Shown here one piece after another: positions 5,421 to 24,645 of a stretch of DNA of 38,497 nucleotides. The stretch comes from Myxococcales bacterium (lineage in GTDB: Bacteria > Myxococcota > Polyangia > Polyangiales > Polyangiaceae): positions 1 through 38,497 of the forward strand of contig PLXW01000076.1 in the NCBI GenBank assembly GCA_003151595.1. Direction: 5' to 3'. The notes below the pieces were generated by a model that saw only the letters and a program-made list of their open reading frames with translations, searched no databases and was not told where the DNA came from. Each line of letters opens with the position of its first letter. Within the stretch, counting starts at the first letter, position 1. Made by a program: the position numbers and the translations under genes.

Positions 5421-5466
5421 GTCTTGCCGCAGGCTCCCTATTCAGTCGCGACCGCGCCGCCCCGTT

Positions 5467-5964: not shown

Positions 5965-5969
5965 CGTGT

Positions 5970-6605: not shown

Positions 6606-6607
6606 GG

Positions 6608-10602: not shown

Positions 10603-11259
10603 GTGATCGTGTCACAAGCCGATCACGGCCCTCTGCTCTGCGCGCCGGACGAGAAAGCTGCGCTCGAAGCGCGCAACGGCGTCGAGCAGCTCGACTACAT
10701 CACCGAGCTCGTTGAGAACGGTGCGCGCGAGCTTCGCGAATCGCATGTGCTCGGGTTGCAAGACATCGCGATTCGCGACGTGTACCCGTGCGGAGGCAAG
10801 TATCGAACGGCGCTTCAGCACGTCGTGATCGCGAACAGCGCTCACACGCTGCCGGAAGCCGCATTCGTTCCGTCGCTCGTTCGCGACGCGGTCGATTGGA
10901 TCAATCTCGGACGCGGGCAACGTTCCGCGCTCGAGCGGGCGGCGTATGCACTCTGGCGATTCAATTGGATCCACCCCTTCGCGGGCGGAAACGGGCGCAC
11001 TTCGCGAGCCGTCGCGTATCTGATCGTGTGCATGGACGCCGGACGAATGCTGCCGGGTGTGCCGTCGATGCCGTCACTGATTTACGATCATCGCGACGAG
11101 TATCTCGTCGCTTTGCGCGCCGCGGACGCATCGCTTCGCGGCGATGACAGCGAGGATGCTCCGGCGCGCGAGCCCGACACGATCGAGATCACGACGTTCC
11201 TGAAAAGGATGCTGACGCGGCAGCTGGCAAGCGTGATCGATCGGCTGTCCTCCCCTTGA
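10603..11259 (+). CDS. Fic-domain protein with altered catalytic motif
   Basis: A 218-residue Fic protein starting at a GTG just after the small upstream gene. The core motif is HPFAGGNGRTSR (H124-R135), against the usual HxFx[D/E]GNGRxxR. The catalytic His, the GNGR anion hole and the last Arg are intact, but the metal-binding acid is glycine (G128). The beta-flap region preceding it (GKYRTALQHVVI) is present. Classical Fic enzymes transfer AMP from ATP to Ser, Thr or Tyr hydroxyls of target proteins. Loss of the acid could weaken AMPylation or point to another donor or reaction, as Doc uses a diverged motif to phosphorylate. A frameshift is unlikely as the frame is intact. Confidence 0.85.
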   Translation: MIVSQADHGPLLCAPDEKAALEARNGVEQLDYITELVENGARELRESHVLGLQDIAIRDVYPCGGKYRTALQHVVIANSAHTLPEAAFVPSLVRDAVDWINLGRGQRSALERAAYALWRFNWIHPFAGGNGRTSRAVAYLIVCMDAGRMLPGVPSMPSLIYDHRDEYLVALRAADASLRGDDSEDAPAREPDTIEITTFLKRMLTRQLASVIDRLSSP

Positions 11260-11377: not shown

Positions 11378-12631
11378 ATGTTGAAGCAACTCCGCGCCCT
11401 CTTCAGCAAGGCACCTACGCCTCCCGCCGATCCGAAGGCGCTCTTCGCGACCGAAGTGGAGACCTTCCTTCGCTCGACGCCCAGCATTACGACCGTCACG
11501 CGCGTTCCCGGGGACTTTGCGTTCGAGGTCGTCGCTTCGTCGGGATCGCACCGGGTCTTTCTCGACAACGTGTTCGCCGAGACGCGCGAGATGTCACCCG
11601 AGCAGCGGCAAGAGAAGATCGCCTTCTTCTTCTCGTCCGTGGTCGGCCCGGACCAGAACGAATCGTGGGACGTAGCTCGTGAGATTCTCGTGCCGGTCCT
11701 TCGCGGCGCGACGTATGGAATCGAGCTGTGGGTGAAGCGGCCGGAGGCGGCGTTCGTGCGTCGCCCCTTCCTGCCGTACGTAGACCTCGCGGTCGCCGTG
11801 GATCGCCCAACCTCGATGAGCTTCGTGAGCCGGGTGACGGTCGAGGGCTGGAAGGTGGAAGAGCGCGAGGTCTTCGAGGCTGCGGCAGCGCGCGCTGCCG
11901 TCCTCGCGAGCGCGAGCGTCGAGCTGTACGACGAGACGTACGGCCCCCTCTGGATCGTCACCTCGAATGACTCGTACGAGTCGTCGCGACTTGCCGTCCC
12001 TGGATGGCTCGCGTCCTTCAGGGGCAAGGTCGAAGGAAACCCGATCGCGATCATCCCCGAACGCGCGACGCTCATGATCGCGGGCGACGCTCGCGCGGAG
12101 ATGATCGAGAGACTCCTGGACAAGGCCGACCGGGAGTTCATGGCATCCAACCGCCGCCTCTCGCCCGCGCTCTACAGCGTGAACGACGAGGGGAGAGTCG
12201 TGCCGTGCGTTCTTCCGGACGATCATCCGCTCGCAGCGAAGGTGAAGATCGCGCACGAGAGACTTGCGCTGTACGAGTACGAGCAGCAGAAGAAGGCGCT
12301 CGAAGAGCTCTACGCAGCGACGGGCTTCGATGTGTATCTGTCGAGCTATTCCGTCTTCAAGGACACACGAGGGGAGCCGCGCTCTCTGTGTTTCTGGCCG
12401 AAGGGGGTTCGCTCCTACCTCCCGCGAACGCAGAGCGTGATGGCCGGTATACCGGGAGCGAACGGCGCCAAGTCGGCGCCCCCTTTCGAGATCCCTTTCG
12501 AAGCGATCGAAGGGCGACTCACTGCGGTGCCTGATCTGCATCCGCCGCGGTTCGAAACGACCGGCGAATTCCCGAACGACGACGAATTGCGTGCGATGGC
12601 CGAAGCGATGGCAACGCCTCGTAAAGCGTAG
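11378..12631 (+). CDS. DUF1444-like protein
   Basis: A 417-residue soluble protein. Several segments resemble DUF1444 (Bacillus YtpQ-type) proteins in order: an N-terminal phosphate-like fold, LVPVLRGATYG (about 108-118), SFVSRVTVEGWKVEEREVFE (about 148-167), YGPLWIVTSNDSYESSRL (about 188-205) and a strand-rich part with IAIIPERATLMIAG (about 223-236). It is longer than the usual 270 residues because of a C-terminal extension (about 280-417) with no recognised fold. The family has no established function. It has its own short upstream region after the Fic gene (118 bp). Its last codons abut the 21-bp repeat tract on the opposite strand. Confidence 0.7.
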   Translation: MLKQLRALFSKAPTPPADPKALFATEVETFLRSTPSITTVTRVPGDFAFEVVASSGSHRVFLDNVFAETREMSPEQRQEKIAFFFSSVVGPDQNESWDVAREILVPVLRGATYGIELWVKRPEAAFVRRPFLPYVDLAVAVDRPTSMSFVSRVTVEGWKVEEREVFEAAAARAAVLASASVELYDETYGPLWIVTSNDSYESSRLAVPGWLASFRGKVEGNPIAIIPERATLMIAGDARAEMIERLLDKADREFMASNRRLSPALYSVNDEGRVVPCVLPDDHPLAAKVKIAHERLALYEYEQQKKALEELYAATGFDVYLSSYSVFKDTRGEPRSLCFWPKGVRSYLPRTQSVMAGIPGANGAKSAPPFEIPFEAIEGRLTAVPDLHPPRFETTGEFPNDDELRAMAEAMATPRKA

Positions 12632-13452
12632 GCCAGCCGCGCCACGGTTCGACGCCCTTTCGCATTCGCCCTCGCACCTCGCGCCGTCTTCCCGCCCTCG
12701 CGCGCCAACCCGCCGCCCCGCTCCGCCAGCGCCCCGCCCCCTCGCGCCACGACGAAGGCGCCGTCAGACCTCACCTCGGCCCACGCCGCCACGCCGATCC
12801 CCGCCCGTGCCACGGCGGCCCCCTCGCGCGCCATCCCGTCGCCCTCGCGCGCCAACCCGATGCCCGCTTCCGCCACGCCGTCGGCACGCCCGGACGACGC
12901 TTTGGCCGCGTGAGCCATGGTGCCGACGCCACTCGCCAACTCCTTCCCCCACTCCGCCATCGTGTTGGCGCAGCTCGCCGACGTGCTGGCAGCGCGCGCC
13001 CTCACCTCGGCATGCGAGGCCACCGGCTTGGCGCAAGCGGCGATCGCGTCGCCCTCGCTGGCCATAGCGTCGGCACCCGCAGCCGTCGCCTCGTCTCCCG
13101 TTGCCATGACGTTGGCGCGCGCCGCCACCACCTTGTCTCCCGTTGCCATGACGTTGGCCCACGCCGCCATCGTCTCGCCACTCGCGGCCACGACGTTGGC
13201 GCACGCCGCCATCGTTTGGTCTCCGCGTGCCGTCACCATGGCGCGAGCCGCCATCACCTTGGCGCGACCGGCCGTCACGTCGGCATGCGCAGCCCTCGCC
13301 TGGTCTGCGTGAGCCAACGCGTCGGCGCGCCCGGCCATCACGTTTCCGGCCGCTGACGCACGCCGTCCCCCCGTCCGAGCGCCATCGCACTCGGCAACCG
13401 TTTCGCCCGCCGCGCCGGACCACGCGTTTTCCCGCACGAAACGCGTGCTCAC
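12415..13452 (-). CDS. Predicted Ala-rich heptad-repeat (coiled-coil) protein
   Basis: A 345-residue frame starting at GTG 13452. Residues 33-277 are about 35 consecutive seven-residue units with small A/G/D at position 4, M/V/L at position 7 and almost invariant Ala at position 1, for example AARANVM and ATGDKVV. This is an a/d/e heptad pattern of a continuous coiled coil with scattered charges. The other strand, read in a similar phase, gives only hydrophobic residues and a stop, so this frame is the better candidate. The C-terminal 70 residues overlap the DUF1444-like gene antisense by 217 bp, which counts against the full length. It faces promoter module 1 divergently. It may instead be a non-coding repeat tract. 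Confidence 0.4.
   Translation of the reverse strand: MSTRFVRENAWSGAAGETVAECDGARTGGRRASAAGNVMAGRADALAHADQARAAHADVTAGRAKVMAARAMVTARGDQTMAACANVVAASGETMAAWANVMATGDKVVAARANVMATGDEATAAGADAMASEGDAIAACAKPVASHAEVRARAASTSASCANTMAEWGKELASGVGTMAHAAKASSGRADGVAEAGIGLAREGDGMAREGAAVARAGIGVAAWAEVRSDGAFVVARGGGALAERGGGLAREGGKTARGARANAKGRRTVARLAYALRGVAIASAIARNSSSFGNSPVVSNRGGCRSGTAVSRPSIASKGISKGGADLAPFAPGIPAITLCVRGR
12622..13356. repeat. Tract of about 35 degenerate 21-bp repeats
   Basis: A 735-bp array with 21-bp period. The plus-strand consensus is roughly GCCATCACGTTGGCGCGCGCC, and neighbouring units differ at several positions. Units alternate in type in part of the tract (GTTGCCATGACGTTGGC versus GCCACCACCTTGTCTCCC). 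One end lies at the stop of the DUF1444-like gene, the other about 120 bp before promoter module 1. The tract fills most of the gap 12632-13546, which otherwise holds only the palindrome at 13422 and the promoter. In-register 21-bp repeats would change length by slippage without shifting a reading frame. Confidence 0.85.
13422..13446. other. Long inverted repeat ACGCGTTTtC / GAAACGCGT
   Basis: ACGCGTTTTC (13422-13431) and GAAACGCGT (13438-13446) pair with a single bulged T across a 6-nt loop. It lies between the heptad repeats and promoter module 1, near the predicted GTG start of the minus-strand frame. It could be an operator or a transcript hairpin. The same GAAACGCGTG word recurs at the matching place upstream of promoter module 2. 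Confidence 0.45.
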
Positions 13453-13475
13453 TCCCCCCGTCGACGCCCCAGCCC

Positions 13476-13539
13476 GGTTTCACAGCCAAAAACCCCAGGC
13501 GCGGTGGTTTCAGGATCTGAAACACGCCCCCCGTATCGT
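13476..13539 (+). promoter_or_regulatory. Promoter module, copy 1
   Basis: Contains GTTTCAG (13507-13513), GAT, CTGAAAC (13517-13523), an inverted repeat shared with the other two copies. A second GTTTC element lies exactly 30 bp upstream at 13477. A -10-like TATCGT (13534-13539) begins 10 bp after the repeat. No good -35 box is seen; the inverted repeat occupies its place. An ATG at 13547 is where the transcript start would be predicted. Confidence 0.7.
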
Positions 13540-13624
13540 TTTGGACATGGAGCCAACGCAGTCGGCCGCGAGCCGAACCATCCACCGAAGCGAAACCGCC
13601 ACCGCCAACCAGGAGTCCTCGAAC

Positions 13625-13960
13625 ATGAACACGTCCACCTCTCCGTCTCTCGTCCACGTCACCGTCACCGCCGTCGTCCCCTCCAACAACCAGGCTCGCC
13701 ACGGGAGCCGTCGCAGCCGCCTCCGCGCTCAGCTGAACGTCGAAACGATCCGTCACGCGAACGCGCGCCGGCGACTCCAGATCGGCGCCGACTCGATGGA
13801 GCTGCTCCGCGAGCTCGAGAGCGCGGAGAGCAACACGACTCGGCACTACCCGTCCGTCGTCGCGCGCGTGGCCCGCGCGATGTCGGACGAGGAAGAACGC
13901 ATCTTCCATATCGGAGAACGCGTCGGGATCCTCCGCGCGAAGCTGGCGGTGTTCCAATGA
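13625..13960 (+). CDS. Small uncharacterised protein A1, first gene of four-part operon
   Basis: A 111-residue protein with an AGGAG Shine-Dalgarno (13609-13613) before the ATG. An in-frame ATG at 13547, at the predicted transcription start, would add 26 residues and could be a leaderless start. The first 24 residues (MNTSTSPSLVHVTVTAVVPS) match the N-terminus of the gene at 19550, and the homology includes the promoter and 5' region. After that the two diverge. The body is Arg-rich and helical (RRSRLRAQL, ARRRLQIG, MSDEEERIFHIGERVGILR). No family is recognised. Its stop overlaps the next gene start (ATGA). I infer control by the shared promoter module. Confidence 0.7.
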   Translation: MNTSTSPSLVHVTVTAVVPSNNQARHGSRRSRLRAQLNVETIRHANARRRLQIGADSMELLRELESAESNTTRHYPSVVARVARAMSDEEERIFHIGERVGILRAKLAVFQ

Positions 13961-14262
13961 GCGCCCTCTGGTCGTGGGGCGACGCGCGGAAGGCAGCACC
14001 CGTGTGGGACTCGCTGCGGCGTCCGTTGGCCGGCGGGCGAAAGAAGCCCGCCGGCATCTCGATGCATCAGTCGCGCAAAGAGCTCTACGGCGCGCAGCAG
14101 CGCGAGTTCACCCTGATGGACAAGCAGCAGCAGGCGGCAATCGAGGGGAGGCGGTTCGGGCCTCGTCTCGAGCGCGAGCTCGAAAAGCTCCGCGAGCGGA
14201 TGGACGAGATCCGACTCGAGATCCTCGCGCTCGAGGATCAGTTTCGAGGAGGTGCGCAATGA
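13957..14262 (+). CDS. Small uncharacterised coiled-coil protein C1
   Basis: A 101-residue protein translationally coupled to the preceding gene by a 4-bp ATGA overlap and to the next by another. A basic N-terminal part with a SWGDARKAAPVWDSLRRP segment is followed by a long charged helix (ERELEKLRERMDEIRLEILA, about residues 75-94) that should form a coiled coil. No enzyme motif, signal or membrane segment is visible. Small size, coupling and charge suggest a subunit of a complex with its operon partners. The family is unknown to me. Confidence 0.7.
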   Translation: MSALWSWGDARKAAPVWDSLRRPLAGGRKKPAGISMHQSRKELYGAQQREFTLMDKQQQAAIEGRRFGPRLERELEKLRERMDEIRLEILALEDQFRGGAQ

Positions 14263-15029
14263 ACGCCGTGCTCTCGACCAGCTCGATGCACGACGAGCCG
14301 CGCCGCGCGCACGTCGGGACGACGTTTCTGCTCCGCGAGCTGCGAGAGCTTCGCGAAGCCCCGATACGAAAGCGACTCGCGCGACTCCGCCGCGTGATGG
14401 ACGTCCTGGAGGAACGCGATGGCCGGCTCGCGGCGGGTCGGTGGGATCCACGGGCCGTCTGGGGACGTGCCGAGCGCGACGCCTGGGACGCCAATCGCGC
14501 GCAGATGGCGCGCCCCCAGCTCGAAATCGATGCGCTCGAAGCCATGCTCCGCCGAGGTGCGCGCGGCACCGTCGGCTCGCAGGTCACGGCCGGCTCCTGG
14601 GTGAAGAAAGAGAAGAAGATCATGAGAAACGCTTCCACCAACAACGACACGACGATCGACCTCTACGAGCAACGCATCGCTGCAATGAAGGACCACGTCT
14701 GCGGTGCGAGGTACCAGATTCCCGTCACCGGACAGGTGCTCACGCCGGCCCGGGTCGTGCGAACACTCGAGGACTGTCTGCGCCGGCGCACGGCCGTCGC
14801 CGACGCGCTCGCGGCCTACAAGGCTGCCCTGGCCGAACGGGACGAGGGCGACGCGCGGTTCCGCGGGGTCGACGACGCCTTGAAGAACTGGGTACTCAAC
14901 ACGTTCGGCGCCGGAAGCACCGAAGCCAAGGCGTTCGGATACGAGCCTCGCAAGATGCCGACGCGAGCGGTCGCGCCGGTCGAGATGACGCCTGCGGTGA
15001 ACGCGCCGGCGGCAGGAGGGGACGCCTAG
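14259..15029 (+). CDS. Fused D1-B1 protein (small helical protein joined to B-type protein)
   Basis: One 256-residue frame starts at ATG 14259 in a 4-bp overlap with the preceding gene and has no stop before 15029. Residues 1-110 are a charged helical protein (LLRELRELREAPIRKRLARL, then RRVMDVLEERDGRLA). Residues 122-256 are a complete B-type protein, paralogous to the gene at 22406. A TGA at the junction (about 14601) is out of frame here but sits at the same distance from the B start as the stop of the leader ORF before the 22406 gene. The join may therefore be a recent read-through fusion, or translation may also restart at ATG 14622. Confidence 0.6.
   Translation: MNAVLSTSSMHDEPRRAHVGTTFLLRELRELREAPIRKRLARLRRVMDVLEERDGRLAAGRWDPRAVWGRAERDAWDANRAQMARPQLEIDALEAMLRRGARGTVGSQVTAGSWVKKEKKIMRNASTNNDTTIDLYEQRIAAMKDHVCGARYQIPVTGQVLTPARVVRTLEDCLRRRTAVADALAAYKAALAERDEGDARFRGVDDALKNWVLNTFGAGSTEAKAFGYEPRKMPTRAVAPVEMTPAVNAPAAGGDA
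14622..15029 (+). CDS. B1 protein, internal-start product, paralogue of the 22406 gene
   Basis: A purine-rich RBS (AAGAGAAGAAG, 14608-14618) precedes this ATG just as AGAAGAGAAGAA precedes the homologous start at 22406, so separate translation from here is likely. The 135-residue product begins MRNASTNNDTTIDLY and shares with its paralogue NDTTxxLY, IxAMKxxV, the LEDCLRRRTAV-like segment, a WVLNxFGxGSTEAxxFGY block and the C-terminal VNAPAAGG(D/S)A. The paralogue has a 100-residue Ala/Pro/Val insert that this one lacks. I recall this kind of protein as a recurrent uncharacterised myxobacterial family; no function is known. Confidence 0.5.
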   Translation: MRNASTNNDTTIDLYEQRIAAMKDHVCGARYQIPVTGQVLTPARVVRTLEDCLRRRTAVADALAAYKAALAERDEGDARFRGVDDALKNWVLNTFGAGSTEAKAFGYEPRKMPTRAVAPVEMTPAVNAPAAGGDA

Positions 15030-15049
15030 GCAGCAAGGCGCGTGTCGAA

Positions 15050-15078
15050 GGCCCGCTCACCTGACGGGTGGGCGGGCC
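15050..15078 (+). terminator. Rho-independent-like hairpin after the four-part operon
   Basis: GGCCCGCTCACC and GGTGGGCGGGCC form a 12-bp stem with one G-U pair around a TGACG loop. No T-tract follows. The same stem sequence recurs after the paralogous gene at 22406. Confidence 0.65.
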
Positions 15079-15098
15079 CGCGGTATAGGGCTCGCGCC

Positions 15099-15459
15099 AT
15101 GACCGACCCGATGAAGACCAGCGAGGCCTGGAACGCGGCCGCACGCGATCTGGGCATCGACGTCGCCGCACCGTTTGCCTTGCGCATCGACGATGCACGC
15201 TCATGAATTCCTCGCCTACGTTCCGCACTTCGGCGGCGGAAACGGCATCGTCGTCGCGGCGCTGCCCTCGGATGGAGCGCAGTACGCGACTGCCGAGCGC
15301 GCGGGCTACCGGTGCTCCTTCGTGAACGCCGACCTGTACGGCACCTACGATCGAGCGCTCTTCGTGGAGACGCTGACGGAGTGGGGCTTCACCGGGCCCG
15401 CAGAGAAGCGTCCCGAGTGGATGGCCGCGGGAACTGTTGCACCATATGGCGTGCGCTAG
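15099..15459 (+). pseudogene. Small gene split by a one-base frameshift
   Basis: From ATG 15099 the frame reads MTDPMKTSEAWNAAARDLGI and on to IDDARS, then stops at 15206. In the next frame the sequence carries on smoothly from HEFLAYVPHFGGGNGIVV to a stop at 15459. Removing one base near 15201 gives a single protein of about 119 residues, so I treat it as one gene broken by an indel (or a base error in the sequence). The second part includes GYRCSFVNADLYGTYDRALF and PAEKRPEWM. A shorter intact gene starting at about 15193 is the alternative. Product family unknown. It lies just after the operon terminator. Confidence 0.5.
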
Positions 15460-15478
15460 CGCCGTTTGTGCACCATAT
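15438..15478 (+). promoter_or_regulatory. Direct-repeat operator before the XRE gene
   Basis: TGCACCATAT occurs at 15438-15447 and again at 15469-15478, 31 bp apart (three helical turns). A perfect palindrome GCGCTAGCGC lies between them. The repeats are upstream of the likely GTG start at 15493 and overlap the end of the preceding broken gene. Autoregulation by the XRE product is a natural reading. Confidence 0.5.
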
Positions 15479-15492
15479 TTGGCCCGCTAACC

Positions 15493-15867
15493 GTGAAGTC
15501 CTCCCGCGCGATCCCCGCCCTGCCGCTCCCCCTGAAGCGGGCCCTGGCCAAGCTCGGTGCCGACATCTCCTCGGCGCGCCGCCGGCGTCGCATCCCGATG
15601 CAGCTCATGGCGGAGCGCGCGTTCGTTGGCCGCAATACGATCACCCGCGTCGAGAGAGGCGACCCCCGCGTTTCGATGGGGATCTACGCAACCGTCCTGT
15701 TCGTGCTCCGGCTGGCGAATCGGTTGTCCGAGCTCGCCGATGCATCCGTCGACGAGATCGGCCTCGACCTCGAGGCGGAGCGACTGCCGCAGCGGATTCG
15801 CTCCTCGCGCCACACCCCAGCCACGAAGCCGAAGGGTTCGAGAGCGGTAGGCCGTACGAGGGCATAG
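15493..15867 (+). CDS. Orphan XRE-family HTH regulator
   Basis: A 124-residue protein from GTG 15493 (a TTG at 15466 would extend it through the operator and is less likely). The HTH lies at about residues 20-75: LGADISSARRRRRIPMQLMA, FVGRNTITRVERGDPRVSMG. Its layout resembles the HipB-like antitoxins that precede hipA kinase genes, where the recognition helix is NTITRVERG. No hipA follows; the next gene is convergent. It may be an orphan antitoxin, or a regulator of neighbours through the TGCACCATAT repeats. The C-terminal 35 residues are basic and disordered. Confidence 0.75.
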   Translation: MKSSRAIPALPLPLKRALAKLGADISSARRRRRIPMQLMAERAFVGRNTITRVERGDPRVSMGIYATVLFVLRLANRLSELADASVDEIGLDLEAERLPQRIRSSRHTPATKPKGSRAVGRTRA

Positions 15868-15881
15868 GGCGTCGGTGCCAA

Positions 15882-18800
15882 TCACACGGCGCCCGCCCCC
15901 TCCTCCATCACCCTGCAGATCAAGTTCACCAGCTTCATCTGCCCCACGCTCGTCACCCGCGTGCTCCCCAGCTCCGGGCTCCCGACCACGATCGCCAGAC
16001 TCTGCGCCCGCGACAGCGCGACGTTGATCCGGTTCGGGCTGAACAGGAACTCGATCCCCCGCGGCGATCCATCCCCCGCACTCGCGCACATCGACACGAT
16101 CACGACCGGCGCCTCTTGCCCTTGAAACTTGTCGACCGATCCGACGCGCACGTTCGGCAACGCGGCACGCAGCGCGCGCACCTGCATGTTGTACGGCGCG
16201 ACCACGAGCAGATCGTCCTCGTCGAGCGCGCTCGCGCGCTTCGCCCGCTCTCCCGTCGTCCCCGTGAGATCGCGCCCGCGCAGCTGGCCAATGATCGCCG
16301 CGATCGCCTCCACTTCCTCTTCGCTCGCCTGCGCGTTCCCTTCGTGCGCCACCGGCACGAAGACGATCCCCGCTTCCTTGGTCACGATCTCGGCCGTGCT
16401 CCTTCGCGTCACCGTTCGCGTCGACGCGCTCGCTTCGGCCTTCAGCTTGTCGTCGTAGACCGCGCCCGAAATGAACCGACACAGCTCCGGATGAAGCCTC
16501 CACGTCGTCCCCAGGAAGATCCCGAGCGACGCGGGAATCGTCCGGTGCTCCTGCAGCAAATACTCGAGCGCCGACTTCCCGCTCTCGCCGGGATGCGATC
16601 CCTTGATGGGTTGCCCCAGCTGCATCTGATCGCCGAGGAGCACGAGGTTGCGCGCGCACGGGCTCATGCCGACGAGGTTGGCGAGTGACACCTGGCCGGC
16701 TTCGTCCACGAAGAGGTAGTCGAACTGGCCAACCGCGTTTTCATGCGCGAACGCCCATGCCGTCCCGCCGACGATCTGCGGCGCGTCCGGGGCACTGAAG
16801 TCGACGTCCTTTATGCTCTCCGCGCCCTGCACGAGCCCATGGACGACGAGCTCATCGTCCGACGCGCTGTTGATCTTCGTGACCCGCAGCGGCGCACCGG
16901 CGGGCGCCTTCTTCAAGGCCTCCTCGATCAGCTTCTGGATCGCCTTGTGGCTGTTCGACGAGATGCCGATCCGGAGACCACGCGCGGCCAGCTCCACGAT
17001 CGCCGCCGCCGCCATGCGCGTCTTGCCCGCGCCGGGCGGGCCTTGCACCGCGATCGCGCTGTCGCTCACGCGCGAGAGGATCGCCGTGACGGACGCTTCG
17101 TTCGGAGCCTCCGTGAGAAACGCATCGCCCTCGGTCACCCCCGTCACGCGCGGCGGCGAGCGTCGGAGAAATGTATCGAGCGCAGGAGAGAGGCGCCCGG
17201 TCTGCTCCCACGCTCGCGCAATCGCGCAGACGGACTCGGCGATCGCATCGGCGGAGACATGCTCGTCCGGCGTGAGCGAGATCCGCTCCGGGGGCTCGAG
17301 GTGCTTCGGCCCCAGCTTGATCTGGAGGATCCCGGTATCGCCGTCGAACGTCTCGATCGTCGTCTTGACGCGCGTCTCCGCGATGAAGCACTTGCTCCCT
17401 TCGCGGAGCTTCGAGTCCTGTTCGGGGTCGAAGCGGTACTCGTAGAGGTGCGACTTTTTGATCGGGATCCGCGCGGTCTCGGTTCGTTCGAGCCCACCCA
17501 GGCAATCGCCGTCCTCGGAGAGCTCGGCGTGCGTCTTCGTTTCGCGATCGAACACCGCCCACCAGACCGGCTTGGCCTCGCGCCGATGAAACCCGACGAG
17601 GTGCGCGAGGAGCTCTTGAATGCGCCAGCGCGACGGATCCCCGCTTCGGTCGGCCGGAATCGCCGCGAGCAGTCGCGCCGCCAGCTCGTCCGCCGCAGTC
17701 ACGGCCGCCTTTCTCTTCTCGTCGACGCCGTCCTTCCTCTCCCGCGGAGGGACGTACGCGATCTCCGCCTCCGCCTGCCGCTCACGAAGCCACGTACACA
17801 GCCCCAGCGTCGACTCGCAGTCGTCCCGATTGTAATCGCGGATCCCCGCGAGGATCGCCGAGCTCTCCCACGAGTCGCCGTCCTGTTCCTCGAGCCAGCG
17901 CGCGTACTCCACCACCGACTGGGCCGCGGTGGCCACGCTCCCTTCGCGCGCCGGCCGATAGAGCCGCTCGACGTTCTTCAGCGAATACCTGGGCTCACCG
18001 ATCCGGAGCGACTGCGTGACGACGCGGTACAGATCGACGAAGACCTCGGCGGTGAGCAGCTGATCGATCTGCTCCTCGCGCGTTCCGTGTTGCCCCATCA
18101 GCCGCCGGAGCGCCGACACCTCGTAGCTCGCGTAGTGATAGACGTGCATCGACGGGTCCGCCTTGAAGCGCACGTAGACCCAATCGACGAACTTCTCGAA
18201 CGCTGCCCGCTCGCTCGCCCGATCGTGCGCCCAGAAATCGTGAAACGCGGGCGCGCCGTTCTCCACGACGACGGCGCCGAAGAGGTACTCGAGTCCGCCC
18301 TCCGTGAGCGGATACCCCTCCATGTCGAAGTAGACGTCCATCGGAGACCCCGGCGGGAGCAGCGCCAGCCCGAGGCGCGCGGCCTGCCCGTCGCGCGGCG
18401 CAAGCTCGTACTCCGGCGCGCTCTTCCCCTTCGACGCGAGCTGCAACCGAGCCTGCGTTCGTAGGCGCGCGAAGATCGGCGCATCCAGCTTCGCGACGCG
18501 CGCGAGCGCCGTCGTCGCCAGCTCGGTCAGCGTCTGGATACCGGCGTCGCGCAGCCGGCGAATCTGATGACGCGTGATCCCGGCGACCCGTGATGGGTGA
18601 TCCATCGCCTCGAGGATCGCGTCGGCCTCTCCCTGCCATCGGCCGTGATCGCCGTGCGCGTCCGGAACGGGCCGCGCTTCGGCGTCGAAGGTGCGGTGCG
18701 CCTCGAGGAAGCGACGCTCCAGGTTCGCGAAGTAGAAGAAGTAGTCGTCGGTACGGAACGCGATCTCTTCTCCGTCGCCGTTGACGATGAAGAGCCGCGC

Positions 18801-19295
18801 CGGCCGCACCCCTTGCGCGTGCTCGAGCATCTTGGCGTACGCGCACAGCTGAATGAGAAAGAGCGGCTTCGCCCTTCGCGCGAGCTTGGTATCGGCGACC
18901 TCGTAGCTCCACGCACCGAGCTGCGACGGCCTCTCCTCGCGGTAGAGAAAATCGGCGTACCCCGAGACATCGTCGCGCCGGAGCGCGGCTTGATAGAGCA
19001 CGTCGTACCCCGCGCGCATCGCGCCGAGCGTCGCCTCGTGCTTCTCGTCGAATGAGCGGAGCGCGCTCGGCGGCATCCACACGCGCTTCCCCGCGGCACG
19101 AAGCGTCTCGAGATGACGCGTCTCGTGCGCCGTCCCCATCTCCGCGAGGAGCTTCAGCTCGGGCGCCACCTCGTCGGGCACCTGCAACCCGGGGCGTTCG
19201 AGCTCGAGCCGATCCATCCACGACGCGAACGGGCTCTCGTAGAACCGACAAAGGTCCCCCGGAGAGAACACCAGCCGGCCGCCACGCCTGTGCAT
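15882..19295 (-). CDS. TM0106-type RecB-like nuclease fused to SF1 helicase
   Basis: A 1137-residue protein. The N-terminal RecB-like PD-(D/E)xK nuclease has D115 in YADFLY and D135-T-K137. A second, RNase H-like (YprB-type) nuclease spans about 318-500, with DMEG at 324-327 and DYNRDD at 487-492. The C-terminal half is an SF1 helicase: GPPGAGKT (752-759), DEAG (864-867), GDQMQLGQP, VDKFQGQE and NVALSRA. Such fusions are known and are assigned to DNA repair or processing; some sit in defence loci. The start at ATG 19295 (MHRRGGRLVFSPGD) fits the family; an in-frame upstream GTG at 19355 is less likely. It is divergent from promoter module 2, about 110 bp away. Confidence 0.88.
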   Translation of the reverse strand: MHRRGGRLVFSPGDLCRFYESPFASWMDRLELERPGLQVPDEVAPELKLLAEMGTAHETRHLETLRAAGKRVWMPPSALRSFDEKHEATLGAMRAGYDVLYQAALRRDDVSGYADFLYREERPSQLGAWSYEVADTKLARRAKPLFLIQLCAYAKMLEHAQGVRPARLFIVNGDGEEIAFRTDDYFFYFANLERRFLEAHRTFDAEARPVPDAHGDHGRWQGEADAILEAMDHPSRVAGITRHQIRRLRDAGIQTLTELATTALARVAKLDAPIFARLRTQARLQLASKGKSAPEYELAPRDGQAARLGLALLPPGSPMDVYFDMEGYPLTEGGLEYLFGAVVVENGAPAFHDFWAHDRASERAAFEKFVDWVYVRFKADPSMHVYHYASYEVSALRRLMGQHGTREEQIDQLLTAEVFVDLYRVVTQSLRIGEPRYSLKNVERLYRPAREGSVATAAQSVVEYARWLEEQDGDSWESSAILAGIRDYNRDDCESTLGLCTWLRERQAEAEIAYVPPRERKDGVDEKRKAAVTAADELAARLLAAIPADRSGDPSRWRIQELLAHLVGFHRREAKPVWWAVFDRETKTHAELSEDGDCLGGLERTETARIPIKKSHLYEYRFDPEQDSKLREGSKCFIAETRVKTTIETFDGDTGILQIKLGPKHLEPPERISLTPDEHVSADAIAESVCAIARAWEQTGRLSPALDTFLRRSPPRVTGVTEGDAFLTEAPNEASVTAILSRVSDSAIAVQGPPGAGKTRMAAAAIVELAARGLRIGISSNSHKAIQKLIEEALKKAPAGAPLRVTKINSASDDELVVHGLVQGAESIKDVDFSAPDAPQIVGGTAWAFAHENAVGQFDYLFVDEAGQVSLANLVGMSPCARNLVLLGDQMQLGQPIKGSHPGESGKSALEYLLQEHRTIPASLGIFLGTTWRLHPELCRFISGAVYDDKLKAEASASTRTVTRRSTAEIVTKEAGIVFVPVAHEGNAQASEEEVEAIAAIIGQLRGRDLTGTTGERAKRASALDEDDLLVVAPYNMQVRALRAALPNVRVGSVDKFQGQEAPVVIVSMCASAGDGSPRGIEFLFSPNRINVALSRAQSLAIVVGSPELGSTRVTSVGQMKLVNLICRVMEEGAGAV

Positions 19296-19403
19296 CGCTC
19301 GTCTCGTTTCCGCCCGCGCGAAGATTCGCCGCAGAGACCTTACCGGAGCGCGCACTTCCCGGCGCGAAACGCGTGGTCGCGCCCGCCTTCGACGTCCGAG
19401 GCC

Positions 19404-19467
19404 GGTTTCGCAGGGAAAAACCCGAGGCGCCGTGGTTTCAGGATCTGAAACAAGCCCCCCGTAACTT
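19404..19467 (+). promoter_or_regulatory. Promoter module, copy 2
   Basis: GTTTCAG (19435-19441), GAT, CTGAAAC (19445-19451), a second GTTTC at 19405 exactly 30 bp upstream, and a -10-like TAACTT (19462-19467) starting 10 bp after the repeat. An ATG at 19475 coincides with the predicted transcript start. It lies between the nuclease-helicase gene (minus) and the small gene at 19550 (plus). Confidence 0.7.
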
Positions 19468-19549
19468 CCGGGTCATGAGCCAAGCGCAAACGGCCGATCG
19501 CCGAACCACCACCCCTGCATCCACCACCGCCAACCCGGAGTCCTCCCCC

Positions 19550-19927
19550 ATGAACACGTCCTCGCCATTCAACCGCGTGACCGTCACCTCCGTCGCCCCC
19601 TCCAACAGCCAGAGCCCCAGCGACCAGCGGCGTCGCTATGTGCTCGCGGACTCGAGCCTCGAATCGGCACTTGGCAAACCGCCGGCGCCTCCCTCCTGGA
19701 GTCGGCGAGGCCGTGACTGGGAAGAGGCGCTCACCGAGGAGTCGTCGCAGCTGGAGGACGCGCTCGCTCACGCCGAGAAGGTCGAACAGTTCCTCATCGC
19801 GCGGATTGCTGGATGCGAGGACGCCGGCCGCCCTGTCCCGGAGCGCATGCTCGAGAACCTGGAGAGGATGCGCGCGCGCATCGAGTGGCTTACCCGCCGG
19901 ATCGGCGAGATCGAGGACGACGGGTGA
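19550..19927 (+). CDS. Small uncharacterised protein A2
   Basis: A 125-residue protein with GGAG (19537-19540) before the ATG; an in-frame ATG at 19475 would add 25 residues. Its promoter, leader and first 22 residues (MNTSSPFNRVTVTSVAPSN) are homologous to the gene at 13625, while the rest is different: an Arg/Trp-rich linker, then charged helices (WEEALTEESSQLEDALAHAE and LENLERMRARIEWLTRRI), probably coiled coil. The in-frame leader of the two genes differs by one codon without breaking the frame. No family is recognised. A hairpin terminator follows, so it is monocistronic. Confidence 0.7.
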   Translation: MNTSSPFNRVTVTSVAPSNSQSPSDQRRRYVLADSSLESALGKPPAPPSWSRRGRDWEEALTEESSQLEDALAHAEKVEQFLIARIAGCEDAGRPVPERMLENLERMRARIEWLTRRIGEIEDDG

Positions 19928-19939
19928 GAGCGCAAGAAT

Positions 19940-19976
19940 GCCTCGGCCCGCCCGACGAGCAGCGGGCGGCCGAGGC
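19940..19976 (+). terminator. Hairpin terminator after A2
   Basis: Arms at 19940-19954 and 19963-19976 (GCCTCGGCC and GGCCGAGGC cores) form a stem of about 14 bp with one bulged C and an 8-nt loop. Only TT follows the stem. Confidence 0.6.
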
Positions 19977-19998
19977 TTCGCCCCATCCGTATTCACGA

Positions 19999-20027
19999 TT
20001 TGCGATTTGAAAAACATTAGCTATCTT
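19999..20027 (+). promoter_or_regulatory. Promoter of the HTH / nucleotidyltransferase pair
   Basis: TTTGCG (19999-20004) and TATCTT (20022-20027) lie 17 bp apart in a locally AT-rich stretch. The predicted start of transcription, about 20034, coincides with the GTG start codon, suggesting a leaderless message. Confidence 0.5.
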
Positions 20028-20033
20028 GATGAT

Positions 20034-20552
20034 GTGGAGCTTCGCCTCAAACCGCAGGACGTCGTCTTGGCCCTCAAGCTCGCCGCGCTTGGATCGGCTG
20101 GATGGACGCAGCCCGAGCTCGCCCGGTCGCTGCACTTCAGCGTCGGTGAAGTGAACCACGGCCTGAAGAGGCTCGCAGCCTGCCACCTCTTCAACGCACA
20201 CGAGCGCCGCGTCGTTCGCGCGGGCCTGCAGGAGTTCTTGGTGTCGGGGCTCCGATACGTATTCCCGACGCAGCTGGGTCTCTTCGGCGAGGGGATGCCG
20301 ACCGCATTCAGCATCGGCCCGCTCGCAGAGAAACTGCGCATGGGTGATGACGACCGCGTCGTCTGGGCGACCGGCAAGGCGAGCGGCGTGCGTGGGCGTG
20401 TCATCACTCCGCTCTACCCGACCGCGCCGCTTGCCGCGGCCGAGGACTCGGCGCTCTACGAGTACCTGGCTCTCGCGGACACGATGAGGATCGGAAGGGC
20501 ACGCGAGCGCGCGTTGGCGAAAGAGGAGCTTTCGAAGAGGCTCTTGTCGTGA
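20034..20552 (+). CDS. Winged-HTH protein, putative antitoxin of the pair
   Basis: A 172-residue protein. The N-terminal 75 residues (VELRLKPQDVVLALKLAAL, then WTQPELARSLHFSVGEVNHG) form a MarR-like winged HTH. The rest (GLRYVFPTQLGLFGEGMPTA and a helical C-terminus) resembles a partner domain seen with nucleotidyltransferase genes. I chose GTG 20034 because it sits at the predicted transcript start; a TTG at 20007 is the alternative. The stop overlaps the next gene start (GTGA), so the pair is coupled. By analogy with AbiE, this would be the autoregulating antitoxin and its partner the toxin. The upstream 35 bp are unusually AT-rich. Confidence 0.75.
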   Translation: MELRLKPQDVVLALKLAALGSAGWTQPELARSLHFSVGEVNHGLKRLAACHLFNAHERRVVRAGLQEFLVSGLRYVFPTQLGLFGEGMPTAFSIGPLAEKLRMGDDDRVVWATGKASGVRGRVITPLYPTAPLAAAEDSALYEYLALADTMRIGRARERALAKEELSKRLLS

Positions 20553-21244
20553 CCGGAGCCCGGGCGAGCTCTCTCGGTGCGATCGCCACGATCGCGCGCG
20601 CGCTCGGCGAGGAACGACCTCGCGTCGTCTTCGTCGGAGGCACGGTCACCGCGCTCTACGCTCTCGAAGGAGGTCTCGACGTGCGGCCCACCGTCGACGT
20701 CGACTGCGTCGTCGATGTGGCGACGACCTCCGAGTACTACGCATTCATCGAGCGTCTGCGCCCCCGAGGCTTCAGCGAATGCATGGATGAGGGGGCGCCG
20801 CTCTGTCGACTCGTCCATGCCGGCATTCGCGTCGACCTCGTCGCGACAACGGCAACCGGCGTTGGTCCGACGAACCGCTGGTACCGAGCGGCTGTGGACG
20901 CCGCCGCGGTGTACCCGCTCGCGTCGGGCCTGGATGTCCTCGCGATCACGCCACTGTATTTCGTGGCGACGAAGCTCGACGCGTTCCAAGGGCGCGGCGG
21001 CGGTGACTACCAGGCCAGCCACGATCTCGAGGATGTCCTCGCCGTCCTCGCCGGATTGCCCACTCTCCGCGAGCAGATCGCACGCGGAGCGTCACCGACG
21101 GAACGGACCATCCGCTCCGAGCTGCGAGCGCTCGGCGCAAGGGAAGCGTTCGTCGACGCGGTCCGAGGACACTTCGAGGCTGACGAAGCTGGCGACGCGC
21201 GCGCAGGCCTGATCGTCAGGTGGCTTCGTTCGCTCACTACGTGA
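20549..21244 (+). CDS. AbiEii-like nucleotidyltransferase, putative toxin
   Basis: A 231-residue protein with a minimal nucleotidyltransferase core: GGTVTALY (G30-G31) followed by TVDVDCVV, whose D50 and D52 are the metal ligands. A helical C-terminal half contains ATKLDAFQGRGGGDYQASHD, a signature of AbiEii-type enzymes, where the Lys and Asp are active-site residues. Related toxins transfer nucleotides to tRNA or other acceptors; the target here is unknown. It starts at a GTG overlapping the HTH gene stop, and it converges with the WYL gene. An antibiotic nucleotidyltransferase is a less likely alternative because of the HTH partner. Confidence 0.8.
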   Translation: MTGARASSLGAIATIARALGEERPRVVFVGGTVTALYALEGGLDVRPTVDVDCVVDVATTSEYYAFIERLRPRGFSECMDEGAPLCRLVHAGIRVDLVATTATGVGPTNRWYRAAVDAAAVYPLASGLDVLAITPLYFVATKLDAFQGRGGGDYQASHDLEDVLAVLAGLPTLREQIARGASPTERTIRSELRALGAREAFVDAVRGHFEADEAGDARAGLIVRWLRSLTT

Positions 21245-21266
21245 CCCGCGTCGTCGCCCGCGATCC

Positions 21267-22256
21267 TCACTCCCCCTCGTACACCCCGCTCATCGCCGCG
21301 ATCTCCGCCCTCACCCGCGCCCTCAGCTCCGCGGGCTCCACCACTTCCACGTTCCTCCCCCAGCTCAAGATCCAGTTCTGCACCTCGAACGTCGGTGCGC
21401 ACTTCATCTCGAAGGCGCACCATCCGCCGCGCTCTTCGCCGATCTTCTGCGACGAGTGCCAGTGCCGCCGCTTCACCGAGCGGAGCACCTCTTTCCGGAA
21501 CCGCAGGCGAATCGTGACCGCCTCGCCGCGCACGATCCCGAACGCGCCGCGGATCTGTCGCTCGGGCGTGTACGTCGACGGGTATTCGAACGAGTCACCT
21601 CTGCACCAACGCAGAGAGCGAATGCCGTCGAACGCGAACGAACGAATCTCCCCCTTGTGCTTCTCGAGGTGAGACTTGCCGACGAGGTACGGCCCCTTCT
21701 TGTGAAAGAGAAGCGTGTACGGGTCCACGCGAAACTCGAGCTGCCCGTCCTCGACCCGTTCGTGCTTCACGGCGACCTGGTGATCGCGGAGGAGCGCGTC
21801 GAGTAGCTCTTGGATGTTGGCGTTGTCGCGCTTGCCGAAGCGCATGGCCCCCTCGTTGACGTCGAAGATCTTGCGCTGAAGGTTCGAGACCATGTCGGGA
21901 CGCTTCAGCGCGGCCGAGATCTTGGCGAAGACGCCGTCGAGCCCTTCGTACATGGGCGTGCCTTCGAGGTACCGCGCGATCTGCTGGGCGACCGCGACGC
22001 CGATCATCTCGAACTGCGTCATCGTGATCGTCGCCCCACGCGAAGAGGCCGGGACGCAGTAGCGCGTCCGTTCGCCCTGCTTGTCTTCGTCGATCGGCGT
22101 CCCTGAAGCGCGGATCTCGTTCAGGAGGCGCCACACGGTGATCCGCGAAACGCCGAGTTTCTCGATCAGCTCGGCGAGCGAGGCGCCACCGGCGCGGGAC
22201 ACCATCGATTTCGCGAGAAGTAAGCGGGTCGTTTTGGTCGTCGCGCTGTCAGCCAT
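21267..22256 (-). CDS. WYL-domain transcriptional regulator
   Basis: A 329-residue protein. Residues about 8-65 are a DeoR-like winged HTH (LAELIEKLGVSRITVWRLLN). A linker leads to a WYL domain with the core segment PYTLLFHKKGPYLVGKSHL, in which the name motif reads PYL, followed by a WCX-like C-terminus. WYL regulators sense ligands such as nucleic-acid fragments; several repress defence operons from divergent promoters. Promoter module 3 begins at this gene's start codon: a TTTCAnnnnTGAAA element lies right before the ATG and the main inverted repeat 30 bp further. I infer that it binds these repeats and controls all three modules. Confidence 0.85.
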   Translation of the reverse strand: MADSATTKTTRLLLAKSMVSRAGGASLAELIEKLGVSRITVWRLLNEIRASGTPIDEDKQGERTRYCVPASSRGATITMTQFEMIGVAVAQQIARYLEGTPMYEGLDGVFAKISAALKRPDMVSNLQRKIFDVNEGAMRFGKRDNANIQELLDALLRDHQVAVKHERVEDGQLEFRVDPYTLLFHKKGPYLVGKSHLEKHKGEIRSFAFDGIRSLRWCRGDSFEYPSTYTPERQIRGAFGIVRGEAVTIRLRFRKEVLRSVKRRHWHSSQKIGEERGGWCAFEMKCAPTFEVQNWILSWGRNVEVVEPAELRARVRAEIAAMSGVYEGE

Positions 22257-22319
22257 GTTTCACCGCTGAAAAGAAGGGGTGCCGTGGTTTCAGGATCTGA
22301 AACCGACCACCCGTATTCT
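22256..22319 (+). promoter_or_regulatory. Promoter module, copy 3
   Basis: The best-formed copy: GGTTTCAG (22286-22293), GAT, CTGAAACC (22297-22304). A second element GTTTCACCGCTGAAAA starts 30 bp upstream at 22257, touching the WYL start codon. A -10-like TATTCT (22314-22319) starts 10 bp after the 7-bp arms. It separates the WYL gene (minus) from the leader ORF and B-type gene (plus). Confidence 0.75.
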
Positions 22320-22325
22320 TCTCTC

Positions 22326-22388
22326 ATGTTGAGAACGAGAACAAGTCACTGCGTGAGCGTCACGGACTCGAAACCGATTCATCACTGA
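22326..22388 (+). CDS. Possible 20-codon leader ORF
   Basis: An ATG at the predicted transcription start opens a 20-residue frame (MLRTRTSHCV to KPIHH) that stops 17 bp before the B2 start codon. The equivalent ATG in modules 1 and 2 is in frame with the main gene. It could be a leader peptide coupling translation to the next gene, or a chance frame. Confidence 0.3.
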   Translation: MLRTRTSHCVSVTDSKPIHH

Positions 22389-22405
22389 AAGAAGAGAAGA
22401 ACATC

Positions 22406-23116
22406 ATGTCCAAGATCAACAACGACACGACGGTCACCCTCTACGCGAAGCGCATCGGCGCGATGAAGAAGTACGTCTCGAATCAGAAGTCCGAAATCCC
22501 GGTCGGTGGGGAAGTGCTCAAACCGAGCGGGGTGCTGCAGGCCTTTCAAGATTGTCTCGACGTGCGGACGGCCGTCTCCGTCACGCACGCCGCGTACAAG
22601 TCGGCTCTCGCCGATCGCGTCGAAGCCGACGAGCGGTTTCGCGTGACCGACGAAGCCATGAAGGGGTGGGTGCTCAACAGGTTCGGTGTCGGCAGCACCG
22701 AAGCCATCGAGTTCGGGTACTCGGTCCGAAAGGCGCCGGCCGTTTCGGCGGCCGATCGGGCGACTGCGGTCTTGCTCAATCAGGCCACGCGCAAGGCGCG
22801 CGGCACGATGGGCAAGCGGGAGAAGCTGAAGATCAAGGGGACGCTGGATGTCCCCACCGCGCCGGCGGCCCCGGCGATCGTCTCGGCGCCTGCGGCCGCG
22901 ACTTCCGCGACGGCCGCTCCGACGGCTGGCGCGGCGGTCCATGCACCGGTGGCAGCGCCGGCCGTGATGACGGGGTCCGCGCCGGCCGTGGTGACGGGGT
23001 CCGCGCCGGTCGCGGCTCCCGTGATCACGGCGGTCGCGGCTCCGGTGGTCGCGCCGATCGCGGCTCCCGTTGCCGCGCCGGTGGTCAACGCCCCTGCGGC
23101 AGGAGGTAGCGCCTAG
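22406..23116 (+). CDS. B2 protein, paralogue of B1 with Ala/Pro/Val-rich tail
   Basis: A 236-residue protein. The N-terminal 110 residues are the B-type domain shared with the gene at 14622 (MSKINNDTTVTLY, GWVLNRFGVGSTEAIEFGY). Residues 110-150 are basic (KARGTMGKREKLKIKG). Residues 150-230 are low-complexity Ala/Pro/Val, with repeated VTGSAP and VAAPV words. The C-terminus VNAPAAGGSA is again shared. The composition of the basic segment plus Ala/Pro tail resembles DNA-associated or linker proteins, but that is a weak inference. An AGAAGAGAAGAA ribosome site precedes it. It is the only gene after promoter module 3 and ends before a hairpin. Confidence 0.8.
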   Translation: MSKINNDTTVTLYAKRIGAMKKYVSNQKSEIPVGGEVLKPSGVLQAFQDCLDVRTAVSVTHAAYKSALADRVEADERFRVTDEAMKGWVLNRFGVGSTEAIEFGYSVRKAPAVSAADRATAVLLNQATRKARGTMGKREKLKIKGTLDVPTAPAAPAIVSAPAAATSATAAPTAGAAVHAPVAAPAVMTGSAPAVVTGSAPVAAPVITAVAAPVVAPIAAPVAAPVVNAPAAGGSA

Positions 23117-23142
23117 GCGTAAGCCGCAGTAGGCCGGGCGAG

Positions 23143-23172
23143 GGCCCGCTCACCTGACGGGGTGGGCGGGCC
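23143..23172 (+). terminator. Rho-independent terminator after B2
   Basis: GGCCCGCTCACC and GGTGGGCGGGCC (12-bp stem, TGACGG loop) followed by TTT. The stem is the same as that after the paralogous operon at 15050. Confidence 0.7.
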
Positions 23173-23216
23173 TTTGCGCGTCGGGGCGATGGCTTCGATC
23201 GCGCCACCGCTCCCCC

Positions 23217-24629
23217 CTACTCCGAAATCCCCGGAGCCGCCCGATACACCCACGTCGCAAAGAACGACTCGAGGTCCCTCCCCGACGACGACTCGAACGC
23301 CATCCGAAGATCCGACGTGCGCGCGCCCTTGCCCGCCCGATCCCTCGTGTACTTCCGAATCCCGTTCCAGAAAGCGTCGTCCCCGATCTCGCGACGGAGC
23401 TTGTCGAGGACGAGCGCACCGCGAAAGTACGTGACGCCACGAGCCTGAAGATCCGACTCGGCGACCGGACGAGAGAGGGATCCGTCCGGGTTCGAGAGGG
23501 CGATCGGCGCGTCCTTCCCCGCGGCGTGAGCTTTCGCGGACCGCGCGCGAAAGTTCTTCATCTCTCCGTCGTAAGCCGCGCGGCCCCACCGATCTTCCTT
23601 CGTGGCGGCGACGAAGTACGTCGCGAACGCTTCGTTCAACCAGAAGTCGGCGAAGTCGGCGCACGGGATCGAAATGCCGAACCACTCGTGCGCGAGCTCG
23701 TGCGTGAAGATCCAGTCGTCCGTCTCGTCCCTCTTCAGATCGTCGACCGAGCTCGCGCCGAGAAGAGAGAGACCTGCGGCCTCCTGGGCCGCGTCGCCGG
23801 AGACGAAGACCTGCGTGTACTCCGCCGCCGGCAAAGGCGACCCCGTGTGCGCCTGGAGAAACGCGAGGCTCGCGGCCGTCGCGCGCAGCGCGGGCTTCAA
23901 GTCAGTGCCTTCGGGGCCGAGGGCGCGAAGCGCGACGCCGCCTGCGTCGAGGTCTTCTTCGTGGAACATGCCCGCCGCGAACGCGTAGAGAAACGGCGGC
24001 GTCGGCACGTCGAGCACGAACGAGTGAACGGCGAGCGCCGCTCCGCCCGCCGCGGCGGATTCGCTCGCGCGCCGCCCGCTCGCCGCCACGCGCAACGCGG
24101 GAGGAGCCGAGACTCGAAGTGCGAGCGTCGCGCGCTGCGCCGGGTCCTGAAGCGTCGGCATCCATGCCGAGGTCAGGTAGCCGCCCCACACGTCGCTCGG
24201 AGAGAAATGCGGCGTGTCCCGATCCGTCGCCCCCCTCCACGTGACGTGCAGCTCGATCGACGAGCCCTTGCGCACCGGCTTCTCGAGGAGCGCGCACAGA
24301 CGCTCGTCCTTCACCCGAAACGGGAGCGGCTTCCCGGCGAGCGAGACGGCTCCGATGGCGAGGTGATTCGCGTCGAGCACCACGACGCCGGTGTCTCGCG
24401 TGGCGCGGAGCTGCAGGTCACCGCTGCCGGACAAGCTCGGCGGCGCGATCGCGAGAGTCAGATCGACCGAGTGATGAACGACGTCGAAGCCTCGTTCGGC
24501 GTCGCACTCGGAGAACGACAGCGCGGGCGCGGGCTGCGAACGAGTCGGGACCCGCACGTCCTTCGAAGCGGGACGCGCGCACGAGAGAGTCAGAGCGATG
24601 GCGAAGAGCAAGAGCGAGCTCGAGGACAT
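23217..24629 (-). CDS. M1-family metallopeptidase-like lipoprotein
   Basis: A 470-residue protein from ATG 24629, with a signal peptide (SSSLLLFAIALTLSC) whose cysteine is in a lipobox. The zinc site is complete: HELAH at 310-314 and E333 in LNEAFATYF, 18 residues later. The usual GxMEN aminopeptidase loop is replaced by QEAAGLSLL (about 282-290), so substrate-end recognition may differ. The N-terminal 200 residues form the beta-rich M1 saddle domain. It should act outside the cytoplasmic membrane on peptides. It is separated by 16 bp from the upstream histidine kinase gene and may share its transcript. Confidence 0.85.
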   Translation of the reverse strand: MSSSSLLLFAIALTLSCARPASKDVRVPTRSQPAPALSFSECDAERGFDVVHHSVDLTLAIAPPSLSGSGDLQLRATRDTGVVVLDANHLAIGAVSLAGKPLPFRVKDERLCALLEKPVRKGSSIELHVTWRGATDRDTPHFSPSDVWGGYLTSAWMPTLQDPAQRATLALRVSAPPALRVAASGRRASESAAAGGAALAVHSFVLDVPTPPFLYAFAAGMFHEEDLDAGGVALRALGPEGTDLKPALRATAASLAFLQAHTGSPLPAAEYTQVFVSGDAAQEAAGLSLLGASSVDDLKRDETDDWIFTHELAHEWFGISIPCADFADFWLNEAFATYFVAATKEDRWGRAAYDGEMKNFRARSAKAHAAGKDAPIALSNPDGSLSRPVAESDLQARGVTYFRGALVLDKLRREIGDDAFWNGIRKYTRDRAGKGARTSDLRMAFESSSGRDLESFFATWVYRAAPGISE

Positions 24630-24645
24630 GGGATTGCGCGGTCCA

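Follow-up and report, generated by a model that had tools for sequence, protein, structure and literature searches.

Here, we describe three copies of a promoter module in a 38,497-nucleotide stretch of contig PLXW01000076.1 from a Myxococcales bacterium (the window, that is, the whole 38.5 kb examined of a contig that, by inference, is apparently 102,044 bp long). Each copy is built around the same 17-bp inverted repeat, which we call O1, and the third copy stands beside the gene of P0002, a regulator of the WYL family. Our best explanation, to which in its full form we give an even chance, is that the three modules are activator-dependent promoters of this adjacent protein. A P0002 homodimer would bind the palindrome O1 in place of a -35 box, while a second dimer may occupy a weaker operator, O2, lying some three helical turns further upstream. 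From O1, P0002 would anchor the housekeeping RNA polymerase on a TANNNT -10 promoter without a usable -35, much as the WYL protein DriD does. Three transcription units would thereby be switched on at the same time: P0001 behind module 3, an operon containing a paralogue of P0001 behind module 1, and a candidate PDC-M21A/B defence pair behind module 2. The inducing cue would be infection or stress, not sensed in the way DriD senses single-stranded DNA (ssDNA).

The modules consist of the following elements:
13507..13523, + strand: module 1 O1, GTTTCAGGATCTGAAAC, from the motif search
13477..13493, + strand: module 1 O2, degenerate, 11/17 to O1
13534..13539, + strand: module 1 -10-like hexamer TATCGT, with ATG 13547 at the predicted start
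19435..19451, + strand: module 2 O1, from the motif search
19405..19421, + strand: module 2 O2, degenerate, 9/17 to O1
19462..19467, + strand: module 2 -10-like hexamer TAACTT, with ATG 19475
22287..22303, + strand: module 3 O1, from the motif search
22257..22273, + strand: module 3 O2, degenerate, 9/17 to O1, abutting the WYL start codon
22314..22319, + strand: module 3 -10-like hexamer TATTCT, with ATG 22326

A motif search of the window found O1 exactly at these three places and, with up to three mismatches allowed, no additional site (six matches, which are the three sites on both strands), compared with a mean of 0.05 matches in shuffled sequence. The initial annotation had reported the inverted repeat at 13507, 19435 and 22287, a second GTTTC exactly 30 bp upstream of each, a -10-like hexamer 10 bp past the repeat and a third copy lying at the WYL start codon, and all of this stands: the repeat is exact in three of three copies, GTTTC begins at 13477, 19405 and 22257, the hexamers are of the TANNNT type in all three, and the WYL start codon occupies 22256-22254 (- strand), with the upstream element beginning at 22257. 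It was also correct in finding no consensus -35 and the repeat over its place, as with an assumed 17-bp spacer the -35 position falls on bases 5-10 of O1, CAGGAT, which match the consensus at one of six positions. The -10 hexamers are themselves predictions and the module copies are not independent. A consensus sigma-70 scan of 12600-24800 returned no promoters, against a mean of 0.6 in shuffles, so that the scan alone says little.

The upstream GTTTC heads a degenerate 17-bp copy of the operator, O2, with 11, 9 and 9 of 17 matches to O1 in modules 1, 2 and 3, respectively; in the window, at least 9/17 matches to O1 occur at 0.7% of positions and at least 11/17 at 0.036%. On this pattern, the unit of the module may be two operators, 30 bp centre to centre and thus about three helical turns apart. 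In module 3, O2 runs directly up to the WYL start codon and hence covers the place of the WYL ribosome-binding site; occupancy here may additionally restrict production of the WYL protein, a form of autoregulation. A possible third and weaker GTTTC..GAAAC-like element is seen 81 bp upstream of O1 in module 1 (13426-13442) and module 2 (19354-19370), with matrix scores of 11.3 and 5.4 that are in the chance-level range, the pair not being independent owing to duplication. An ATG follows 10-11 nt past CGTA in all three modules, at the predicted transcription start; in modules 1 and 2 it shares the reading frame of the first gene, and in module 3 it opens a frame of 20 codons. This suggests the idea that leaderless mRNAs could arise from the three modules, against which counts the purine-rich, ribosome-binding-like sequence upstream of the starts at 13625, 19550 and 22406.

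Modules 1 and 2 are the product of a duplication that reaches past the module (49 of 70 upstream bases identical; 166 nt at 78%), and the N-termini of their first genes are similar; the three copies are therefore not three independent witnesses. Downstream, module 3 agrees with modules 1 and 2 at chance level (7/31 and 8/31; 23/107 and 25/107), and upstream its 24/70 identity to module 2 is likewise chance (reached by 12-22% of window positions), whereas its 30/70 identity to module 1 is above chance (reached by 0.4-2% of window positions), and a weak old kinship is thus possible. Despite this, module 3 keeps 17 of 17 bases of O1, the GTG before it and six of seven positions of the CxCCCGTA block at the -10. 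Columns identical in all three copies amount to 17/17 in O1, 11/17 in O2, 18/85 further upstream and 9/107 downstream, the 18/85 exceeding the mean of 7.4 for three unrelated stretches, with the proviso that modules 1 and 2 are related. As judged from these alignments, O1 is under constraint, because it is complete in module 3 in spite of chance-level similarity downstream and at most weak similarity upstream. It could be argued that the repeat has no regulatory role and that its three copies are what is left of a single promoter region after duplication, as the duplicated flanks of modules 1 and 2 and the above-chance upstream match between modules 3 and 1 would allow, but we consider this very improbable, given that O1 and the -10 block were kept where module 3 is otherwise at chance downstream, and upstream in comparison with module 2.

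The proposed owner of the operators is encoded as follows:
21267..22256, - strand: WYL regulator P0002 (HTH_11, WYL, WCX by Pfam), DriD-like by sequence and fold

Pfam places P0002 in the WYL family (HTH_11, 27.5 bits with a cut-off of 25; WYL, 37.3 with 21.8; WCX, 71 with 23.9), and its gene is divergent from module 3. By sequence and by fold, its nearest solved relative is Caulobacter DriD, at about 22% identity, and both lines of evidence place it on the side of the activators DriD and PafBC. BrxR and CapW are not its nearest neighbours in fold among the solved WYL proteins, and no chain titled BrxR or CapW is found among its six profile matches. From its sequence, P0002 is nonetheless no plain DriD. 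In alignments with PafC and DriD, R201 and R204 of PafC correspond to A208 and G211 of P0002; exchange of the two PafC arginines abolishes ssDNA binding (PMC11804915), and R204/R207 of SiwR, which were not aligned to P0002, are said to be needed for ssDNA binding (PMC10693628). Across 26 aligned sequences including P0002, drawn at 43% identity or more from 54 listed homologues (P0020, P0025, P0028, P0030 and P0034, of that range or source, were left out), position 208 is A in 23 and S, V or G in one each, never R, and position 211 is G in all 26, while R205 and R213 are kept in all 26. In 23 more remote WYL proteins, position 211 is R in 21, A in one and G in one, and at position 208 there is A in 14 of them and R in two; since Ala 208 is common in the remote proteins too, the loss of R at 211 is the telling change. 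With both ssDNA-binding arginines replaced in 26 of 26 sequences, the signal of P0002 is probably not sensed as in DriD.

DriD offers the closest known parallel to the locus. It occupies a palindrome that overlaps the -35 and keeps an invariant distance to the -10, in promoters with one or two of six -35 matches, anchors polymerase mainly via a three-helix bundle and activates one promoter divergent from driD; its regulon in Caulobacter crescentus is given as didA, bapE, recJ, dnaG and CCNA_03891/CCNA_01149 (PMC12340889). The window shares with it the HTH-WYL-WCX architecture, a palindrome that covers the -35 place with invariant spacing to a weak -10, a poor -35, a small predicted regulon and an operator in a promoter divergent from the regulator gene, and the DriD-type geometry (O1 over the -35 place, 10 bp to the predicted -10) is found in three of three modules. 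It differs in its operator, the DriD operator being reported as ATACGAC-N7-GTCGTAT, in the possible second site O2 at -30, in its unrelated targets and in the absence of the two WYL arginines. The mycobacterial proteins PafBC and SiwR are likewise described as WYL activators acting at the -35/-26 region, with the SiwR palindrome between -35 and -10 (PMC11804915, PMC10693628); in the account considered, however, PafBC is a heterodimer, and R201/R204 of PafC are the residues exchanged in P0002.

The same arrangement can be read in the opposite sense, with P0002 as a BrxR/CapW-like repressor that occupies the -35 place at each of three weak promoters until infection releases it. O1 lies over the -35 place, a tandem arrangement of operators would favour cooperative repression, the position of O2 directly at the WYL start in module 3 fits autoregulation, defence-type genes are present in the window, and BrxR is documented as a WYL-type repressor whose inverted repeats stand at two sites within a defence island (PMC9122601). 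Operators of inverted-repeat type that recur within a defence region and adjoin the regulator gene are a feature that BrxR has in common with this locus. BrxR and CapW are, however, more remote from P0002 in fold and known as repressors, whereas P0002 in sequence and fold is nearer the activators; moreover, the modules have no -35 match to give basal activity, and a fixed spacing from O1 to the -10 is required for activation but not for repression. The DriD-like geometry, including the divergent gene, leads us to rate activation above repression of the BrxR kind, which we regard as somewhat unlikely. The two readings have in common the claim that P0002 owns the operators.

The genes downstream of the modules, and two hairpins, are:
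22406..23116, + strand: P0001, module 3 target, predicted helical with a low-confidence Ala/Pro-rich tail
13625..13960, + strand: module 1 first gene, 111 aa, with a relative (P0065) elsewhere
14259..14621, + strand: module 1 frame from ATG 14259, preceded by GAGGAGGTG
14622..15029, + strand: P0001-like gene of the module 1 operon
15050..15078, + strand: hairpin, possible end of the module 1 operon transcript, without T-run (-26.5 kcal/mol)
19550..19927, + strand: module 2 first gene, 125 aa, N-terminus like that of the module 1 first gene
19938..20552, + strand: module 2 PDC-M21A-type protein, start codon not certain (116.8 bits, PADLOC)
20549..21244, + strand: module 2 PDC-M21B-type nucleotidyltransferase, Pfam AbiEii (161.9 bits)
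23143..23172, + strand: hairpin after P0001, followed by TTT (-27.9 kcal/mol)

Only one of the three operons is recognisably defence, that of module 2, where alone a candidate PDC-M21A/B pair is encoded together; PDC-M21 was not mentioned among the matches listed in the literature search. P0001 has no match in Pfam (E 0.1), NCBIfam (E 0.1) or PADLOC (E 0.01), and its fold model, with long helices and a predicted local distance difference test score (pLDDT) of 63.6, has no match in the PDB at E 0.001. The family found for it comprises eight proteins including P0001 itself, all with the motif ARGT...KLKI(K/R)G and with a tail often ending in NAPAAGG; the motif is absent from the P0001-like copy at 14622-15029. 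The frame at 14259..14621 continues into the P0001-like sequence with no intervening stop codon and may therefore belong to that gene as an extension of its N-terminus. The two hairpins are near-identical, each 3' of a P0001-type gene, and both are absent from the list of a terminator scan that gave five sites compared with 6.4 in shuffles.

The presence of the PDC-M21 pair raises the alternative that a different regulator owns the operators, for instance PDC-M21A of module 2 acting through AbiEi-like autoregulation, or an unlinked factor, the WYL neighbour being coincidental. Module 2 indeed encodes the pair with its AbiEii-type nucleotidyltransferase, AbiEi antitoxins are reported to autoregulate through inverted repeats (PMC7319586), inverted repeats upstream of an AbiEii-type nucleotidyltransferase operon recall the AbiE type IV toxin-antitoxin systems, and such palindromes occur elsewhere with no WYL gene noticed. 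We nevertheless judge this alternative improbable: the operator also precedes two operons for which the scans gave no pair of this kind, which sets it apart from AbiE, no M21A match occurs among the scanned proteins of modules 1 and 3, and module 3 abuts the WYL gene and is seemingly kept together with a WYL homologue and a P0001 relative on another contig.

This last point comes from P0057, one of seven P0001 relatives besides P0001 and the one predicted with a 5' extension. Its start, VVSGSETTHRYSLLHG, fits GTG plus O1 through the GAAAC codon by codon, with TAY at the -10 in the same register, and at the forced codon positions of its 18 codons, 20, 18 and 16 of 27 match modules 1, 2 and 3, respectively, so that both the operator and the -10, in their relative positions, seem to be preserved at this locus. 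P0057 and P0004, an 86% WYL homologue, apparently lie on one contig, as judged from an identical longest-contig value of 98,900. In mobile elements, no WYL relatives were confirmed in viral contigs; 55 plasmid records were found, all below 60% identity (about 24-27% among 20 matches listed), together with three partial matches in phages, and no P0001 relatives occurred in viral contigs or plasmids. The operator had 13 exact matches in viral contigs (23-54% GC), none with the module, and among the looser matches (34 and 5) none had the full module, one viral contig (L056) being the most similar.

The activator explanation has to be weighed against several observations that speak against it. The palindrome over the -35 is equally a classic position for a repressor, and the fixed distance from O1 to the -10 could be inheritance, since modules 1 and 2 are duplicated and modules 1 and 3 are perhaps old paralogues. 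O2 is weak and barely self-complementary (8, 10 and 6 of 17 in modules 1, 2 and 3, compared with 14/17 for O1), and the matrix that scores it was itself trained on O2. The structural model of P0002 is of medium confidence (pLDDT 73.5; predicted template modelling score 0.49), falling below a pLDDT of 50 in two segments (74-88 and 90-106) that form part of the putative three-helix bundle, the whole-chain root-mean-square deviation from full-length DriD is 13-16 A, and the signal-site WYL arginines of DriD and PafBC are absent, which sets P0002 apart from the DriD type. The operator comparison covered one of the seven P0001 relatives, as the other six start downstream, and the operator is absent at a 55% WYL homologue on L001, where the upstream repeats look different. 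Finally, GTTTCAG-N3-CTGAAAC is not specific to WYL loci: the viral contig L056 (64% GC) has two, 35 bp apart at 5356-5407, upstream of a gene named by eye as quinone-oxidoreductase-like, and no WYL protein was noticed by eye among its open reading frames listed for 3800-7000. L001, the only contig from the scan of genome contigs, is 5.6 kb long and binned as Gemmatimonadaceae; by eye it has a ParA-like protein, an integrase and also an array of GCACTCC-type repeats, and among 51 genomes of its phylum three match the WYL protein, namely its own and two weak ones (1.7e-5 and 4.8e-5). On balance, the three-locus WYL regulon proposed in the initial annotation is still the best reading of the sequence, given the divergent WYL gene, the apparent linkage of P0057 and P0004 and the DriD-like architecture; activation is at least as likely as the repression suggested by its link to defence control, and only one of the three operons is recognisably defence.

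Further genes of the window may be noted. The restriction- or defence-like genes to the left have no module copy at them in the window; they include a PLD-ResIII-helicase-DUF3427 protein (1668-4763, - strand) and an Mrr-domain protein (7086-8765, + strand), both matching PADLOC type IV restriction models, and after the latter stands a Fic protein at 10603-11259. A repetitive stretch at 12640-13400, with 21- and 42-nt spacings, is open on both strands (for example 12415-13452, - strand, and 12917-13312, + strand) and may be a gene or a non-coding array. Divergent from module 2, 15882-19355 (- strand) encodes a fusion of a TM0106-type RecB-like nuclease (TIGR03491, 256.8 bits) with RNase H-like and AAA_11/AAA_12 helicase parts. 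There was no Rfam match and no tRNA.

In the papers considered, the WYL regulators of defence systems, BrxR and CapW, are repressors, while the WYL activators DriD, PafBC and SiwR answer genotoxic stress and bind ssDNA. Nothing like this locus was found in the titles and abstract openings of the papers listed on myxococcal WYL regulons or on DriD and anti-phage WYL activators, nor was the operator string found in the literature searched. A more novel and somewhat unlikely reading is a clade of DriD-like WYL activators in which the ssDNA pocket would be exchanged for that of another ligand and a tandem operator would replace the -35, inducing a defence pair together with the P0001 family; if true, this would be an inducible immune regulon driven by an activator instead of being held by a repressor. 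The locus presents a candidate WYL activator whose signal pocket is changed, whose operator is sharply defined and whose neighbours include defence-type genes. What such a WYL domain senses becomes a testable question, and the operator can be used to track down the remaining members of the regulon, the undescribed P0001 family among them.

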